The translations under genes were made by a program, and so were the position numbers. Of a DNA stretch of 64,000 bases, positions 41,193 to 54,800 are shown in pieces. The notes under the pieces were generated by a model that made no database searches, was not told the DNA's origin, and saw only the letters and a list, made by a program, of their open reading frames with translations. Numbering within the stretch: position 1 is the stretch's first letter; the number at the start of each line of letters is the position of its first letter. The stretch comes from Pseudomonas sp. P5_109 (GTDB lineage Bacteria; Pseudomonadota; Gammaproteobacteria; Pseudomonadales; Pseudomonadaceae), in assembly GCF_034009455.1 (NCBI RefSeq), contig NZ_CP125380.1, positions 3,547,501 to 3,611,500 of the forward strand, read 5' to 3'.

Positions 41193-41216
41193 GGCTTCAC
41201 TGGTTTGGAGGCCCCT

Positions 41217-41782
41217 TGTAGGAGCGAGCCTGCTCGCGATGGTCGTTAACGATAACGCGGGTAAACCGGATAAACGCGGCGCACTTGAATCCATCGCCGG
41301 CAAGCCGGCTCCTACAGGTACTGCGCGGTCCCTTGTAGGAGCGAGCCTGCTCGCGATGGTCGTTAACGATAACGCAGGTAAACCGGATAAACGCGGCGCA
41401 CTTGAATCCATCGCCGGCAAGCCGGCTCCTACAGGTACTGCGCGGTCCCTTGTAGGAGCGAGCCTGCTCGCGATGGTCGTTAACGATAACGCAGGTAAAC
41501 CGGATAAACGCGGCGCACTTGAATCCATCGCCGGCAAGCCGGCTCCTACAGGTACTGCGCGGTCCCTTGTAGGAGCGAGCCTGCTCGCGATGGACGCTAA
41601 CGATAACGCAGGTAAACCGGATAAACGCGGCGCACTTGAATCCATCGCCGGCAAGCCGGCTCCTACAGGTTTTGCGCGGTCCCTTGTAGGAGCGAGCCTG
41701 CTCGCGATGGACGCTAACGATAACGCGGGTAAACCGGATAAACGCGGCGCACTTGAATCCATCGCCGGCAAGCCGGCTCCTA
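41217..41782. repeat. Tandem REP/BIME array, left of the insertion sequence
   Basis: Five units begin with TGTAGGAGCGAGCCTGCTCG at 41217, 41334, 41451, 41568 and 41685, an exact 117-base period. Each has the spacer GTCGTTAACGATAACGC...GGTAAACCGGATAAACGC and an inverted REP GCCGGCAAGCCGGCTCCTACAGG. The fifth unit stops after GGCTCC-TA at 41782, where the insertion sequence begins; its last 19 bases reappear at 43222-43240. The reading frames that run through the array are a consequence of its 39-codon period. Confidence 0.93.
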
Positions 41783-41785
41783 TGT

Positions 41786-41797
41786 ATGGACTCGCCC
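41786..41797 (+). repeat. Left subterminal inverted repeat of the IS
   Basis: ATGGACTCGCCC, matched in inverted orientation by GGGCGAGTCCAT at 43203-43214. A third, direct copy at 43138-43149 overlaps the transposase start codon. Confidence 0.88.
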
Positions 41798-41837
41798 CCA
41801 CTGTCTACCCGCTTTTGAAAAACCGCTGCCCCGTTGC

Positions 41838-41959
41838 ATCTATGTATTAGGCCTATTCGTGGAAGCCGTCTTCGGCTTCTGGCCAAAATTGGAAAAGCTC
41901 GTGGTATGCCGATTACAGTCAGGCCTCGAAGGCCAGTAGGAGCTTAGGCATCAATCCAC
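41838..41959 (-). ncRNA. Probable bridge RNA/seekRNA of the IS110-family element
   Basis: Read on the transposase strand, the region downstream of the gene contains two loop structures. First, an outer stem (GTGG..ATGCC 41901-41910 with GGCAT....CCAC 41947-41959) encloses a hairpin (41922-41934). Its flanks are GTAGGAGC (41936-41943) and TACAG (41914-41918), matching the REP target GCTCC-TA-C on one strand and TA-CAG on the other. Second, a 7-bp hairpin (41862-41879) is flanked by AATTGGA (41887-41893) and TATGTAT (41841-41847), matching right end TCCAAT-T and left end TA-TGTAT. All four guides include core bases. The order target loop then donor loop is that described for IS110-family bridge RNAs. 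Exact RNA ends are not known. Confidence 0.7.
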
Positions 41960-42035
41960 GCCGGTCTTACCTGGGGTCAATTTTTTTTCAGCAGAGGGTC
42001 AGACGGTTAGTACCTCGGTGGCAGAACTCTGTCGC

Positions 42036-43139
42036 TCAGTGGCCCATCGTCGCTGGCTGGCCATCACCCGCGTGGCGACGATAAGTCTGGTCATTCTGTA
42101 GAAGCACCCAGACGATTCGCAGGTTGCGGTTGGCTAGCCTGATCGCAGCCTCCTTGCGGCCCAACCGGCTCATCCAGTGCAACAAGCGGCGGTCATCGGG
42201 TTGCTGGGAATCAGGTCGTAGTTGTTGCAGCACCGCATGGGCCCCCTGGATCATCAGGCTGCGTAAATAAGCATCACCTCGCTTGGTCATGCCCCCCAAC
42301 CGGACCGTCTCCCCGCTGCTGTGCTGGTCAGGCACCATGCCAAAGTACGCGGCAAACTTGCGGGCATTGGGAAATCGCTCAGGCTTGGTTTCCTTGGCCA
42401 CCAGTGCCGTGGCAGTGACCGGGCCGATGCCGCGCACAGTCATTAGCCGCTTCGCCGTCATGTCAGCGTTGGCGGCCACTTCCAGGCGTCCCGTCAGTAC
42501 GCTGATGCGCTCGCCCAAATGGCGCCACTCGGCCAACAGTTCGTCGATCAGCTCACGCAGCAGGCCCGGCACCGGCTGGGTGGCATCTTCCAGCACCCGC
42601 GGGATTTTCTGGCTGATCGCAACATCGCCCTGTGCCAAGGCTACGCCGTGCTCAAGCAGCAGGCCGCGCATCTGATTACTGAGGGCCGTGCGTCGACGCA
42701 CATAGCCCTGGCGGGCACGATGCAACGCCTGCATTGCCAGCGCCGCAACACTTTTGACCGGTACTGCGCAGATTTTTTCATCGCGATTGGCCCGCAGAAT
42801 CGCCAGCGCATCGTTGCGATCATTTTTAGGCCCGCTGCGATGTGTGGCCACCAAACCGGCTGGAAGAATCCGCACCGGATTACCTTGCTCTTGCAGCTGC
42901 CGGGCCCAGGCCTGGGCACCCGGACCGGTCTCCATCAAAACCACGACATGCGCCGGCAACTGTCGGAGAAAATCATAAAACGCCTCGCGCGACTTGATCC
43001 GCTGCTCGTAGCGCACCTGGCCGAGGATATCTTCACCGGCGACCTGAAAGACCTGTTTGGCCAAGTCGACCGCCAAGGTTGTGCAGGCCGACAAATCGGA
43101 AGAAGACACGGATTGATCAAACGAACTATGATTTTTCAT
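42036..43139 (-). CDS. IS110-family transposase
   Basis: A 367-residue transposase. The N-terminal RuvC-like DEDD domain shows LAVDLAKQVFQVA (first Asp near residue 25), VVLMETGPGAQAWA (Glu) and GPKNDRNDALAIL (Asp pair). The C-terminal Transposase_20 domain has the helix-hairpin VRGIGPVTATALVAKE and FAAYFGMVPDQHSSGE, RLGGMTKRGDAYLRSLM with the catalytic serine region. These enzymes recombine a circular intermediate into the target under guidance of an RNA from the IS. The frame is intact, so the copy may be active. Confidence 0.95.
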   Translation of the reverse strand: MKNHSSFDQSVSSSDLSACTTLAVDLAKQVFQVAGEDILGQVRYEQRIKSREAFYDFLRQLPAHVVVLMETGPGAQAWARQLQEQGNPVRILPAGLVATHRSGPKNDRNDALAILRANRDEKICAVPVKSVAALAMQALHRARQGYVRRRTALSNQMRGLLLEHGVALAQGDVAISQKIPRVLEDATQPVPGLLRELIDELLAEWRHLGERISVLTGRLEVAANADMTAKRLMTVRGIGPVTATALVAKETKPERFPNARKFAAYFGMVPDQHSSGETVRLGGMTKRGDAYLRSLMIQGAHAVLQQLRPDSQQPDDRRLLHWMSRLGRKEAAIRLANRNLRIVWVLLQNDQTYRRHAGDGQPATMGH

Positions 43140-43149
43140 GGACTCGCCC
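43138..43149 (+). repeat. Third copy of the IS end repeat at the transposase start
   Basis: ATGGACTCGCCC, followed by TCGCTGTC (left end: CCACTGTC), in the same orientation as the left end and overlapping the transposase start codon. With the right-end repeat at 43203-43214 it forms an inverted pair 77 bases across. Confidence 0.8.
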
Positions 43150-43202
43150 TCGCTGTCGTTGGCTGTTTAGACTGCCACCGTGGCGCATTGACGCCTCGGC
43201 TT

Positions 43203-43214
43203 GGGCGAGTCCAT
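43203..43214 (-). repeat. Right subterminal inverted repeat of the IS
   Basis: GGGCGAGTCCAT, the exact reverse complement of the left repeat at 41786-41797, five bases inside the right end. Confidence 0.88.
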
Positions 43215-43219
43215 CCAAT

Positions 43220-43460
43220 TACAGGTACTGCGCGGTCCCTTGTAGGAGCGAGCCTGCTCGCGATGGACGCTAACGATAACGCGGGTAAACCGGATAAACG
43301 CGGCGCACTTGAATCCATCGCCGGCAAGCCGACTCCTACAGGTACTGCGCGGTCCCTTGTAGGAGCGAGCCTGCTCGCGATGGACGCTAACGATAACGCA
43401 GGTAAACCGGATAAACGCGGCGCACTTGAATCCATCGCCGGCAAGCCGGCTCCTACAGGT
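43220..43460. repeat. Tandem REP/BIME array, right of the insertion sequence
   Basis: The interrupted unit resumes with TACAGGTACTGCGCGGTCC, and two further full units start at 43241 and 43358 (117-base spacing). The array ends with GGCTCCTACAGG at about 43449-43460. Before insertion it had seven units. The stretch 43461-43538 up to the stop of the epimerase gene contains a short CACACC(C)/GGGAGGTGTG inverted repeat and no gene. Confidence 0.92.
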
Positions 43461-45809: not shown

Positions 45810-45905
45810 TGGCGGAAGGCAGCCGGAGTCGAACCTGCCCGGGAACGGATGCCGTCCCCAACCGGGTTTGAAGCCCGGCCGCGCCACCGGGCGCGATTGC
45901 CTTCC
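45810..45905 (-). tRNA. selC: tRNA-Sec (anticodon TCA)
   Basis: Read on the minus strand, the gene starts GGAAGGCAATCG and ends TGCCTTCC-G-CCA, with the CCA encoded at 45810-45812. The acceptor is long, the extra arm is large (around GTTGGGGACGGCATCC), and the anticodon loop CTTCAAA places TCA at 45869-45871. This length (about 93 bases without CCA) and anticodon are diagnostic of selenocysteine tRNA. It decodes the in-frame UGA of fdnG. It lies 19 bases after the selB stop on the same strand and may be processed from a longer selAB transcript. Confidence 0.97.
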
Positions 45906-51838: not shown

Positions 51839-54800
51839 TTAGACTTTCTCCACGTTGACCAGGAATGACTTGGATTCCGGGGTCTGGGTGTTGCCATCGC
51901 CGAGGAACGGCACCAGGGTGTTGGTCAGGTAACCGTGCCGCGTGAGGCCGGTAAACCCCCAGTGCAGCGGAATGCCGATCTGGTGCACCACCTGATTGTT
52001 GACCTGCAGCGGCCGAATCCGCTTGGTCACCACCGCTACCGCTTCAATGAAGCCACGCTTGCTGCTGACCCGTACCCGGTCGCCCGCGGCGATGCCTTTT
52101 TCCTTGGCCAGTACTTCGCCGATTTCCACGAACTGCTCGGGCTGGGCAATCGCGTTGAGCTTGCAGTGCTTGCTCCAGAAGTGGAAATGCTCGGTCAGCC
52201 GGTAACTGGTGGCGGCGTACGGGTAGTCCTTGGCCACGCCGAGGGAATCCCAGACCGAATCGAAGATCCGCGCCGCCGGGTTGCTGGTGGCTTTCTTGTT
52301 GTTCGGGTGCAGCGGGTTGATCCCGATTGGCGTTTCGAATGGCTCGTAGTGCTCGGGGAACGGGCCTTCGTTCATCTTGTCGACGGCGAAGAACCGCGCC
52401 ACGCCCTCGGGGTTCATGATGAACGGGTTCATCCCGGCTTCCGGCGGCACGTCGGCCTTGTAGTCCGGCACGTCGGTGCCAGCCCAGGCTTTGCCGTTCC
52501 ACCACACCAGGCGTTTTTTCGGGTCCCATGGCTTGCCTTGCAGGTCGGCCGAGGCGCGGTTGTAGAGAATCCGCCGGTTGGCCGGCCAGGCCCAGGCCCA
52601 GCCTTGGTGTTGATGCATGCCGTAAGGATCGGCATTGTCGCGCCGGGCCATCTGGTTGCCGAGTTCGGTCCAGCTGCCACAGAAAATCCAGCAGCCGGAC
52701 GCGGTGCTGCCATCGTCCTTGAGCTGGCCGAAACCGGCCAACTGCGCGTTGGCCTTGATCGCAGCGCCCGTGGCGTCGGTAAAGTCCGCCGTGGCTGAGC
52801 CGTTGATTTCCTTGGCCAGTTCTTCCGGCGAAGGTTCTTCGGGGATCTTGTACGGCCACGTCAACTTGAGCAGAGGGTCGGGAAACTTGCCGCCATTGGC
52901 CTGGTAGCGCTGGCGCAGACGCAGGAACAATTCGCTCATGATCCGAATGTCGGTGCGAGCTTCGCCAGGGCCGTCGGCGCCCTTCCAGTGCCATTGCAGC
53001 CAGCGGCTGCTGTTGACCAGCGAGCCGTCCTCCTCGGCAAAGCAGGTAGTGGGCAGGCGAATCACTTCGGTCTGGATGTCGGCGCTCTTGACATCGTTAT
53101 ACGGCCCGACCTTTTGCCAGAACTCCGAGGTCTCGGTGGCCAGCGGGTCCATCACCACCAGCCACTTCAGCTTGGCCAGCGCCAGCATCACGCGGTTTTT
53201 GTCCGGCAGTGCAGCGATAGGGTTGAACCCTTGGCACATGTAGCCGTTGACCTTGCCTTGCCCCATCAGATCGAACACCTTGAGGATGTCGTATTGGGGG
53301 ATGTCCAGCTTCGGCAGGTAGTCGTAGGCCCAATTGTTCTCGACCGTGGCATTGGCGCCGTACCAGGACTTCATCAGGCTGACGTGGAACTTGCCGTAGT
53401 TCTGCCAATAGGACAACTGCCCCGGGCGCAACGGTTTCTGCGTGCGCTTGACGATGTAGGCGTTGTAATCCTGTTCGGCATCGCCCGGCAGCGTGAGGTA
53501 GCCCGGCAGTGAGTTGGACAACAGCCCAAGGTCCGTCAGCCCCTGGATGTTGGAGTGGCCGCGCAAGGCATTCACGCCCCCGCCCGGCATGCCGACGTTA
53601 CCCAGCAACAGTTGCACCATCGCCGCGCTGCGGATGATCTGCGCGCCGATCGAGTGCTGGGTCCAGCCCAGCGCATAGAGGATGGTCATGGTCTTGCCGG
53701 GTTGCGAGCAAGTGGCGATCTCGTCCCAGATCTTCTGCATGGCATCGACCGGCATGCCGCAGATCTGGCTCGCCAGGTCGATGTTGTAGCGGCTGTAGTG
53801 CTGCTTCATCAATTGATAGACGCAGCGTGGGTCCTGCAAAGTCGGATCGACCTTGGCAAAACCGTCCTCGCCGAGTTCATAACCCCAGCCGGATTTATCG
53901 GTGTACAGGCGTTTTTCGGCGTCATAGCCGCTGAAGATCCCGTCCTCGAAGCCATAGCCGGCCCTGACGATGAACGACACGTCGGTGTAGTTGCGCACGT
54001 ATTCGTGCTGGATCTTGTCCTCGGTCAGCAGGAAATTGATCAACCCGCCCATGAAGGCGATGTCGGTGCCGGTACGGATCGGCGCGTAGTAGTCGGCCAC
54101 CGAGGCGGTCCGGGTAAAACGCGGGTCGACCACGATCAGCCGCGCCTTGTTGTGCGCCTTGGCTTCGGTCACCCATTTGAAGCCGCACGGATGCGCTTCT
54201 GCTGCGTTGCCGCCCATCACCAGGACCAGATTCGCGTTGGCGATATCGGTCCAGGTATTGGTCATGGCACCACGGCCGTACGTCGGGGCAAGACTTGCCA
54301 CCGTCGGGCCGTGTCAGACACGCGCCTGGTTATCAAACCCCAGCATGCCGAGACTGCGCACCACCTTGTGGGTGATGTAGCCGGCTTCGTTGGACGCCGC
54401 CGAGGCCGCGAGGAAACCGGTGGTCAGCCAGCGGTTCACTGTTTGGCCCTGGGCATTTTTCTCGATGAAATTGGCGTCACGGTCGGCCTTCATCAGGTCG
54501 GCGACGCGATCGAGCGCTTCATCCCAGGAAATGCGGGTCCACTCAGTGCTGCCGGGTTTACGCACCTGCGGATATTGCAGGCGCCCGGGACTGTGTATGA
54601 AGTCCAGCAGGCCCGCGCCTTTGGGGCAAAGGGTGCCGCGGTTGACCGGGTGGTCGGCGTCACCTTCGATATGGATGATGTTTTGCGCGACATTCTTGGC
54701 CGTATCGCCCTGGCTGTACATGATCAAGCCGCAACCGACCGAGCAATACGGGCAGGTGTTGCGGGTTTCATGGGTGTGGGCGAGCTTGAAATGACGCACC

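Follow-up and report, generated by a model that had tools for sequence, protein, structure and literature searches.

Several insertion sequences of the IS1111 group are known to work with an RNA. Recombinases of this group, including that of ISPa11, co-purify with a seekRNA from the non-coding region downstream of the gene, with pieces matching both target strands, according to passages of Siddiquee et al. (2024; PMC11187229), and altering the ISEc11 RNA together with the donor flanks alters its target; the same passages give subterminal repeats, terminal extensions of 7 and 3 bp and a long downstream non-coding region as marks of the group. In excerpts of Durrant et al. (2024; PMC11208160), bridge RNAs are predicted in 93.0% of IS1111 elements, and many IS1111-group RNAs have their donor bases in a multiloop. 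All copies of ISPa11, ISPpu9 and ISPpu10 in their genomes lie in REPs, as stated in part of Tobes and Pareja (2006; PMC1525189). Given this published work, the mechanism considered here, that of the seekRNA or bridge RNA of IS1111 elements, is already known, and so are members that target REPs (ISPa11, ISPpu9, ISPpu10). RNA-guided recombinases of the IS110 family are also candidates for genome writing.

Here we describe an element found in a window of 64,000 nt of Pseudomonas sp. P5_109 (NZ_CP125380.1, positions 3,547,501 to 3,611,500). Judging from the sequences of the element and its relatives, we are highly confident that this is an RNA-guided IS1111-group insertion sequence, and that small changes in its target guide place it in host repeats.

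An IS1111-type element in a REP array

By its sequence features, the window element is a member of the IS1111 group of the IS110 family (Table 1). Its transposase scores above the cut-offs of both PF01548 and PF02371 (DEDD/RuvC-type and Transposase_20) and matches NF033542, 'IS110 family RNA-guided transposase', with 282 bits against a cut-off of 140. The IS1111 mark GL-P----S(T)G of the C-terminal domain is present as GMVPDQHSSG, M for L being the sole deviation. The subterminal inverted repeats are 12 bp long with identical arms (11-13 bp is usual for IS1111), the terminal extensions of 7 bp on the left and 3 bp on the right follow the IS1111 rule, and 253 non-coding bases lie downstream of the gene versus 82 upstream (gene start 43139, IS end 43221). 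In gene orientation, the ends read CCTG/TAATTGG-ATGGACTCGCCC ... GGGCGAGTCCAT-ACA/TAGGAGCC.

Table 1. Features of the window copy; guides and stems are predicted assignments
Feature	Position	Strand	Remark
Whole IS1111-group element, 1439 bp	41783..43221	-	Rejoined flanks equal neighbouring repeat units
DEDD-type transposase/recombinase, 367 aa	42036..43139	-	PF01548 + PF02371, NF033542; G--P----SG at residues 267-276
Left subterminal inverted repeat ATGGACTCGCCC, upstream of gene	43203..43214	-	Identical to other arm; present in relatives
Right subterminal inverted repeat, downstream of gene	41786..41797	+	Arm identity
Left terminal extension TAATTGG	43215..43221	-	TA at 43220-43221 is the core
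Right terminal extension ACA	41783..41785	-
TA core, target copy	41781..41782	.	Adjoins GGCTCC 41775-41780
Left part of the REP-pair tandem array (117-bp units)	41213..41782	.
Right part of the REP-pair tandem array (117-bp units)	43222..43460	.
3' non-coding region, proposed seekRNA/bridge RNA source	41838..42035	-
Right-target guide AGCTCCTAC	41936..41944	-	Would pair with top strand G-TA-GGAGCT; changes together with target
Hairpin separating the two target guides	41922..41934	-
Left-target guide (CTG)TA(AT)	41912..41918	-	Sense equals top strand; weak beyond (T)GTA in clade
Target-loop outer stem, 5' arm	41956..41962	-	Relatives show two-sided changes; 3' arm lies within 41900-41910
Target-loop inner stem, 5' arm	41947..41952	-
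Left-donor guide UCCAAUU	41887..41893	-	Five-base register CCAAU (41888-41892) is the part compared across families
Stem-hairpin separating the two donor guides	41862..41884	-
Right-donor guide AUACAUAG	41840..41847	-	Sense equals right end + core

The original prediction had the element interrupting a 117-bp REP unit between GGCTCC and CAGG with a TA in common, and the rejoined flanks reproduce three neighbouring units exactly. The array has 117 bp per unit, with 4.9 copies to the left of the IS and 2.1 to the right, and the 64-base rejoined empty site shows no mismatch to the array stretches starting at 41283, 41400 and 41517, two to that at 41634 and one to that at 43307. On this sequence comparison, the ends and the empty site are established.

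The P5_109 genome holds 13 copies of the element. Each of the 13 stands in front of the same REP palindrome, at the REP core; the window copy differs in that it alone departs from the guide at the outermost target base, with TAGGAGCC where the guide reads TAGGAGCT. The genome contains 395 GTAGGAGCT words, the element's own RNA genes among them, and may offer the element many targets that are safe, as originally inferred. By protein search, six copies have a full open gene and seven (L002, L007-L009, L011-L013) an interrupted or partial one. The RNA regions of all copies, including these seven, are 99-100% identical, so that the interrupted copies could perhaps be moved in trans. All 13 RNA regions found in the genome belong to the 13 element copies.

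Two side observations concern this part of the window. The transposase weakly resembles the NCBIfam model of the RNA-guided endonuclease TIGR-Tas, at 28.8 bits for a cut-off of 100, perhaps through distant shared ancestry. Selenocysteine parts lie near the element on the minus strand, namely Rfam SECIS_3 (54261-54319, 82.8 bits) and tRNA-Sec (45814-45905, 78 bits).

Guide pieces and predicted structure of the RNA

The four guide pieces originally put forward are present in the 3' non-coding region. The right-target stretch GTAGGAGC lies at 41936-41943 and extends to GTAGGAGCT (41944), TACAG and AATTGGA lie at 41914-41918 and 41887-41893, and TATGTAT (41841-41847) extends to CTATGTAT from 41840. 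The idea that both pairs span the TA core fails for AATTGGA, which covers only the A of the core.

For this copy, the RNA region was dinucleotide-shuffled 5000 times to compare the matches with chance. A right-target match of 8 bases was reached in 80 shuffles and a right-donor match of 7 bases in 178; the 5-base left-target match was reached in 1909 and is not significant alone. The three were reached jointly in one shuffle. A core-spanning score for the left donor was reached by every shuffle and was discarded; it is meaningless because AATTGGA lacks the T of the core. Thus, within the window sequence alone the guide matches are only modestly unlikely, and for this reason relatives were examined. 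At gathering scores, Rfam gave no IS RNA hit in the window.

Seventeen RNA regions were aligned and folded over the part corresponding to 41833-41971. The predicted fold has two domains, and in each of them a hairpin lies between two guides, which agrees with the original proposal that each guide pair flanks one. In an alignment from which the structure itself was derived, 98.0% of cells were paired versus a shuffled mean of 95.4. Two-sided changes occurred at six pairs (13 cells) versus a shuffle mean of 2.1 pairs, a count reached in none of 500 shuffles, and partners slid along the alignment gave at most two. The predicted structure is in this respect conserved among homologues, as had been anticipated. 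Because 17 of the 29 pairs never vary, these are uninformative on structure, and the covariation measure 'further pair types' was reached by 66 of 500 shuffles. The counts include L062, a region with a misaligned 5' end in alignment A2. Folding energy was rejected as proof of structure, since the window RNA is not unusual in this measure (z -0.95, reached by 32 of 200 shuffles).

Target guides and host repeats in relatives

Relatives were collected from 149 and 398 genomes of the genus, from named genome contigs and from further stretches. The resulting clade comprises 86 distinct insertion sites in 18 host genomes, with transposases (or their matched parts) 62-100% identical. Sites were read only at loci with exact right-end and RNA landmarks, and one guide (L150) was unreadable, which leaves 85 readable sites. 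A plasmid collection gave no close relative and two partial matches, 70.5% and 76.9% identical.

The right-target guide (RNA bases 41944-41936) is reverse complementary to G-TA and six bases of the flank. It matches the flank at 8/8 bases in 80 of the 85 readable sites, with eight different guides (Table 2), or in 79 of 84 when one doubtful row is removed. This row is the second L117 entry among six of G255; it is the right flank of a short remnant end, was read with the guide of the neighbouring copy and was counted as a match. Four exceptions match at 7/8, namely the window copy, one copy in G139, one in G264 and the single G046 copy. The G046 element has a TH41-type guide, yet its one (damaged) copy lies at the common REP. 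The fifth, a G255 copy directly followed by a remnant of another copy's RNA region, 70 bases long, matches at 4/8, the worst of the set. At that locus (L117, G255:C1:1789602-1793747) two copies lie close together, and the second abuts the remnant, an RNA-region end, with the flank TAGGCCTGATACAT.

Table 2. Right-target guides and the flanks at which the elements lie
Guide	Flank (commonest, except last row)	Host
AGCTCCTAC	TAGGAGCT	Own, P. lini, ERMR1:02, G098, GM80
AGCTGCTAC	TAGCAGCT	TH41
GGCTCCTAC	TAGGAGCC	G012, G255, G182
CGCTCCTAC	TAGGAGCG	G139, G104, G204, P. helleri
CGCTCTTAC	TAAGAGCG	G264
CCCTCCTAC	TAGGAGGG	G022
CCAACCTAC	TAGGTTGG	Rhodanobacter MAG
CGGTCCTAC	TAGGACCG	ICMP561
AGCTGCTAC	TAGGAGCT (mismatched)	G046

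Guide and target demonstrably change together in these sequences. Relatives with other targets carry matching changes in the right-target guide, the opposite of what the original prediction had named as evidence against itself: at lineage level, 107 of 108 bases beyond the TA match over 18 lineages (none of 100,000 permutations, kinship ignored), and 53 of 54 do so when each of the nine distinct guide/target pairs is counted once (2 of 100,000, kinship ignored). The smallest step separates TH41 from the P5_109 element. Their transposases are 95-96% identical, and one guide base and the matching target base differ, at 6/6 TH41 sites. The protein tree places TH41 in a group (96/92) with the P5_109 element and P. 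lini, to which ERMR1:02 is the next outer branch; the P5_109, P. lini and ERMR1:02 elements all carry a guide other than that of TH41. As TH41 nests in a supported group with the other guide, the simplest reading of the sequences is that it changed guide and target together. The tree gives no resolved position for G264 within the clade.

Agreement between guide and target might instead come from shared ancestry, if the flank had been carried along from one insertion or if the RNA gene had acquired it by recombination. The RNA regions are nearly identical among the copies within a genome, as such an origin would have it, and the sites of one genome are therefore not independent tests of the guide. 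However, left flanks differ between copies, which speaks for separate insertions, many other variants on offer in the hosts went unused, and the TH41 step involves one matching base at high protein identity. We regard shared ancestry as a most improbable source of the agreement.

The choice among repeats within each host forms a natural experiment. Six nine-base variants were counted in 13 hosts, and the 75 sites of those genomes were used, with L150 counted by its flank; the remaining five hosts, with 11 sites, did not enter the test. The units counted are nine-base words that include the element's own guide DNA, not proven free REP sites, and on this basis 70 of the 75 insertions lie at the guide-matching variant versus 26.5 expected from availability (69 of 74 without the doubtful L117 row). 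The host of TH41 (G129) has 942 GTAGGAGCT and 953 GTAGGAGCG words and only 222 GTAGCAGCT, yet all six insertions are at GTAGCAGCT, a REP-like variant with 13 words in P5_109. G264, whose element has a slightly different guide, has 1050 GTAGGAGC(T/C/G) words, yet 12/12 insertions lie in another, non-REP repeat (GTGACTCGCTGTAAGAGCGAAACC and close variants), with a guide match of 8/8 at 11 sites and of seven at one. Among the 35 GTAAGAGCG words of G264, 12 are the element's own RNA genes, and 10 of 20 examined among the other 23 fall in the same interspersed repeat. Taken singly, G139 (P 0.54), G230 (0.93), G255 (0.15) and G046 (1, 0/1) give no support.

The G264 target, as seen for instance at L156, L157 and L163, reads GTGACTCGCTGTAAGAGCGAAACC...GGATATG and variants. 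The name R178, considered for this repeat, was dropped, since passages of PMC2718517 give no sequence.

These data bear on a second alternative, in which recognition of REP DNA, or of the REP hairpin, lies with the recombinase, and the RNA matches are by-products or serve regulation only, as proposed for Ssr9 of ISPpu9. The constant position of the P5_109 copies beside one REP palindrome (13/13) would fit this, as would a left flank that is nearly unconstrained and, from passages of PMC8450116, the finding that ssr9 deletion has little if any effect on transposition of incoming ISPpu9. However, the G264 element lies outside REPs at every site with a guide that matches, the relatives from Rhodanobacter and ICMP561, with one site apiece, have guides that fit the other sequences at which they lie, and the choice of variant within hosts follows the guide. 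We consider recognition by the protein very unlikely, and guidance by the RNA remains our preferred reading.

A simple rule, by which each guide would fit whichever of the six variants is most frequent in the host, was rejected: the variant that fits the guide ranks first in only 6 of 13 hosts. The guide-matching variant is usually plentiful (the sum of logs was reached by 13 of 200,000 permutations), with G264 and G204, at 35 words each, as exceptions. Whether the guide of this clade evolves by very small steps under selection, so as to match a numerous interspersed repeat of its host, seems to us an evenly balanced question. If it does, the clade would record naturally occurring, datable steps in the reprogramming of an RNA-guided recombinase. 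A literature search, made without bioRxiv and most subscription papers, returned no title or abstract start on guides following host repeat types within one clade.

The left side of the target is less constrained. G at -1 is fixed in the clade (73/73 sites with a left flank), and the left-target guide matches in 58 of 73 sites at -2, 31 at -3 and 6 at -4; the TH41 guide has C versus T at 6/6 sites. TACAG is a weak left-target guide in the clade. With this limit among others, the original reading of an RNA programmed for the REP core is supported. Because clade matches fade beyond -2, the role of the left-target guide rests on distant relatives, several of which have a left-target part that fits their own left flank (GTTTGAAC, GGGTTTT, TTTTCAG, ACGGGTT). 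When flanks were swapped among 24 elements (17 distant, 7 of the clade), own flanks fitted better than swapped ones for both target guides (146 versus a mean of 94.0, and 131 versus 99.2; none of 50,000 each). The own flank fitted the own RNA no better than the average RNA of the set in 6 of 17 distant elements for the right-target guide (L023, L024, L033, L036, L080, L083), and in 4 of 17 (L030, L034, L036, L043) plus G129 for the left-target guide. L038 was left out of this test, and eight distant loci without clean ends (L022, L025, L028, L031, L035, L037, L042, L081) were left out of this test, of the donor-pair test and of the cross-family comparison of donor pieces.

Other families were seen among the relatives. 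One (L024, L027-L030, L039-L041) has ends of the form TAATGAG..., and several of its flanks are terminator-like, with a GC stem and a T run. The guides of L029, L030 and L039 agree with their own targets over 8-9 bases, and L043, a member of the same family, lies at a REP-like sequence with a 9-base fit. The flanks of another family (L026, L032, L034-L037) resemble integron attC ends (GTTAG...), as described for ISKpn4/ISPst6.

Putative donor guides, the proposed mechanism and known systems

A joint change of donor pieces and element ends is supported across distant families, as judged from pairs tabulated by hand in a hand-chosen register; within the REP clade there are mismatches. For the left donor, 48 of 55 bases of the five-base register match the left end over 11 distinct pairs (1 of 200,000 permutations, kinship ignored), the piece being shifted by one base for L024, L027, L029 and L030. 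Matches per pair are 5,3,4,5,4,3,5,5,4,5,5 of 5, and the five pairs that mismatch their own end belong to lineages with the end TTAC (two pairs), TTGA or TTGT, and to L033. For the right donor, 113 of 128 bases match over 16 pairs (none of 200,000 permutations, kinship ignored). The right-donor piece tracks the right end and first target bases in several families and is invariant in the REP clade, G264 included, where the target has TAA versus TAG in the RNA. L041 was left out of the cross-family comparison of donor pieces.

It may be that the seekRNA only seeks the target, that the donor pieces match by chance or are conserved for other reasons, and that the protein reads the ends through the long subterminal repeats. 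Consistent with this, the passages of Siddiquee et al. (PMC11187229) describe only target matches in the seekRNA, and in the REP clade several lineages mismatch the left donor while the right donor never varies. Elsewhere, however, the left-donor register follows different ends (CCCAT, TACAG, CTCAT, TTCAT), as does the right-donor register (ATATACG, ATATAAGA, ATAGATTT), and in excerpts of Durrant et al. (PMC11208160) the loops of six elements that were inspected, IS1111 members included, are reported to be complementary to the donor as well as the target. We therefore think that an RNA without donor guides is rather unlikely, although it deserves more weight than the two alternatives above, and we include donor guides in our model.

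We propose that the DEDD-type recombinase works with an RNA encoded downstream of its own gene. In this RNA, one loop would pair with both target strands, mainly with the nine bases G-TA-GGAGCT on the REP side, and a second loop would pair with the IS ends, AATTGGA on the left and ATACATAG on the right. Strand exchange would take place at the TA, with no target duplication apart from the shared TA. Small changes in the target guide within the clade would then put the element in one or another host repeat. Production of the RNA, its binding by the recombinase, the pairing and a circular intermediate are assumed here by analogy with published work on relatives.

As guide and landing site change together in relatives, the element belongs to a known type of system. 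What its clade adds is a series from nature in which guides change slightly and follow the repeats of their hosts. The clade lets guide, target and host repeat content be compared side by side. It points to the bases on which natural guides seem to rely, nine of them on the REP side with little use of the other side, and shows how far mismatches occur, and very few guide changes accompany a new genomic home. It also gives comparative support to IS1111 donor guides, which are absent from the description in the available passages of the seekRNA paper and were inferred from inspected loops in those of the bridge RNA paper.

Among described elements, ISPa11 of P. aeruginosa is alike in being IS1111-type, in its REP target and in its downstream RNA, compared by published description rather than by sequence; in both elements the RNA piece for the top strand lies 5' of that for the bottom strand. 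ISPpu9 and ISPpu10 of P. putida KT2440 are IS110-family elements with 7/7 copies each in REPs (PMC1525189, in part), and ISPpu9 produces, downstream of tnp, an sRNA in sense orientation that is about 180 nt long (PMC8450116, in part). They differ in their reported two-base direct repeats, and ISPpu9 differs further in having no clear terminal inverted repeats, an antisense sRNA and orphan ssr9 copies, whereas the P5_109 RNA regions all lie within element copies. IS621, of the IS110 group, shares a two-loop bridge RNA with left and right target and donor guides and a natural REP target, but its bridge RNA is in the left end, as in the IS110 group, and not in the right end, as in the IS1111 group (excerpts of PMC11208160). 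The window protein matches the IS621 and ISCro4 proteins over only about 75 residues. Last, ISEc11 and ISXne4 are, like the elements studied here, related elements with changed guides and changed targets (passages of PMC11187229). Their transposases are 72% identical and their targets share 3/13 bases, whereas here we find one-base steps at 95-96% identity.
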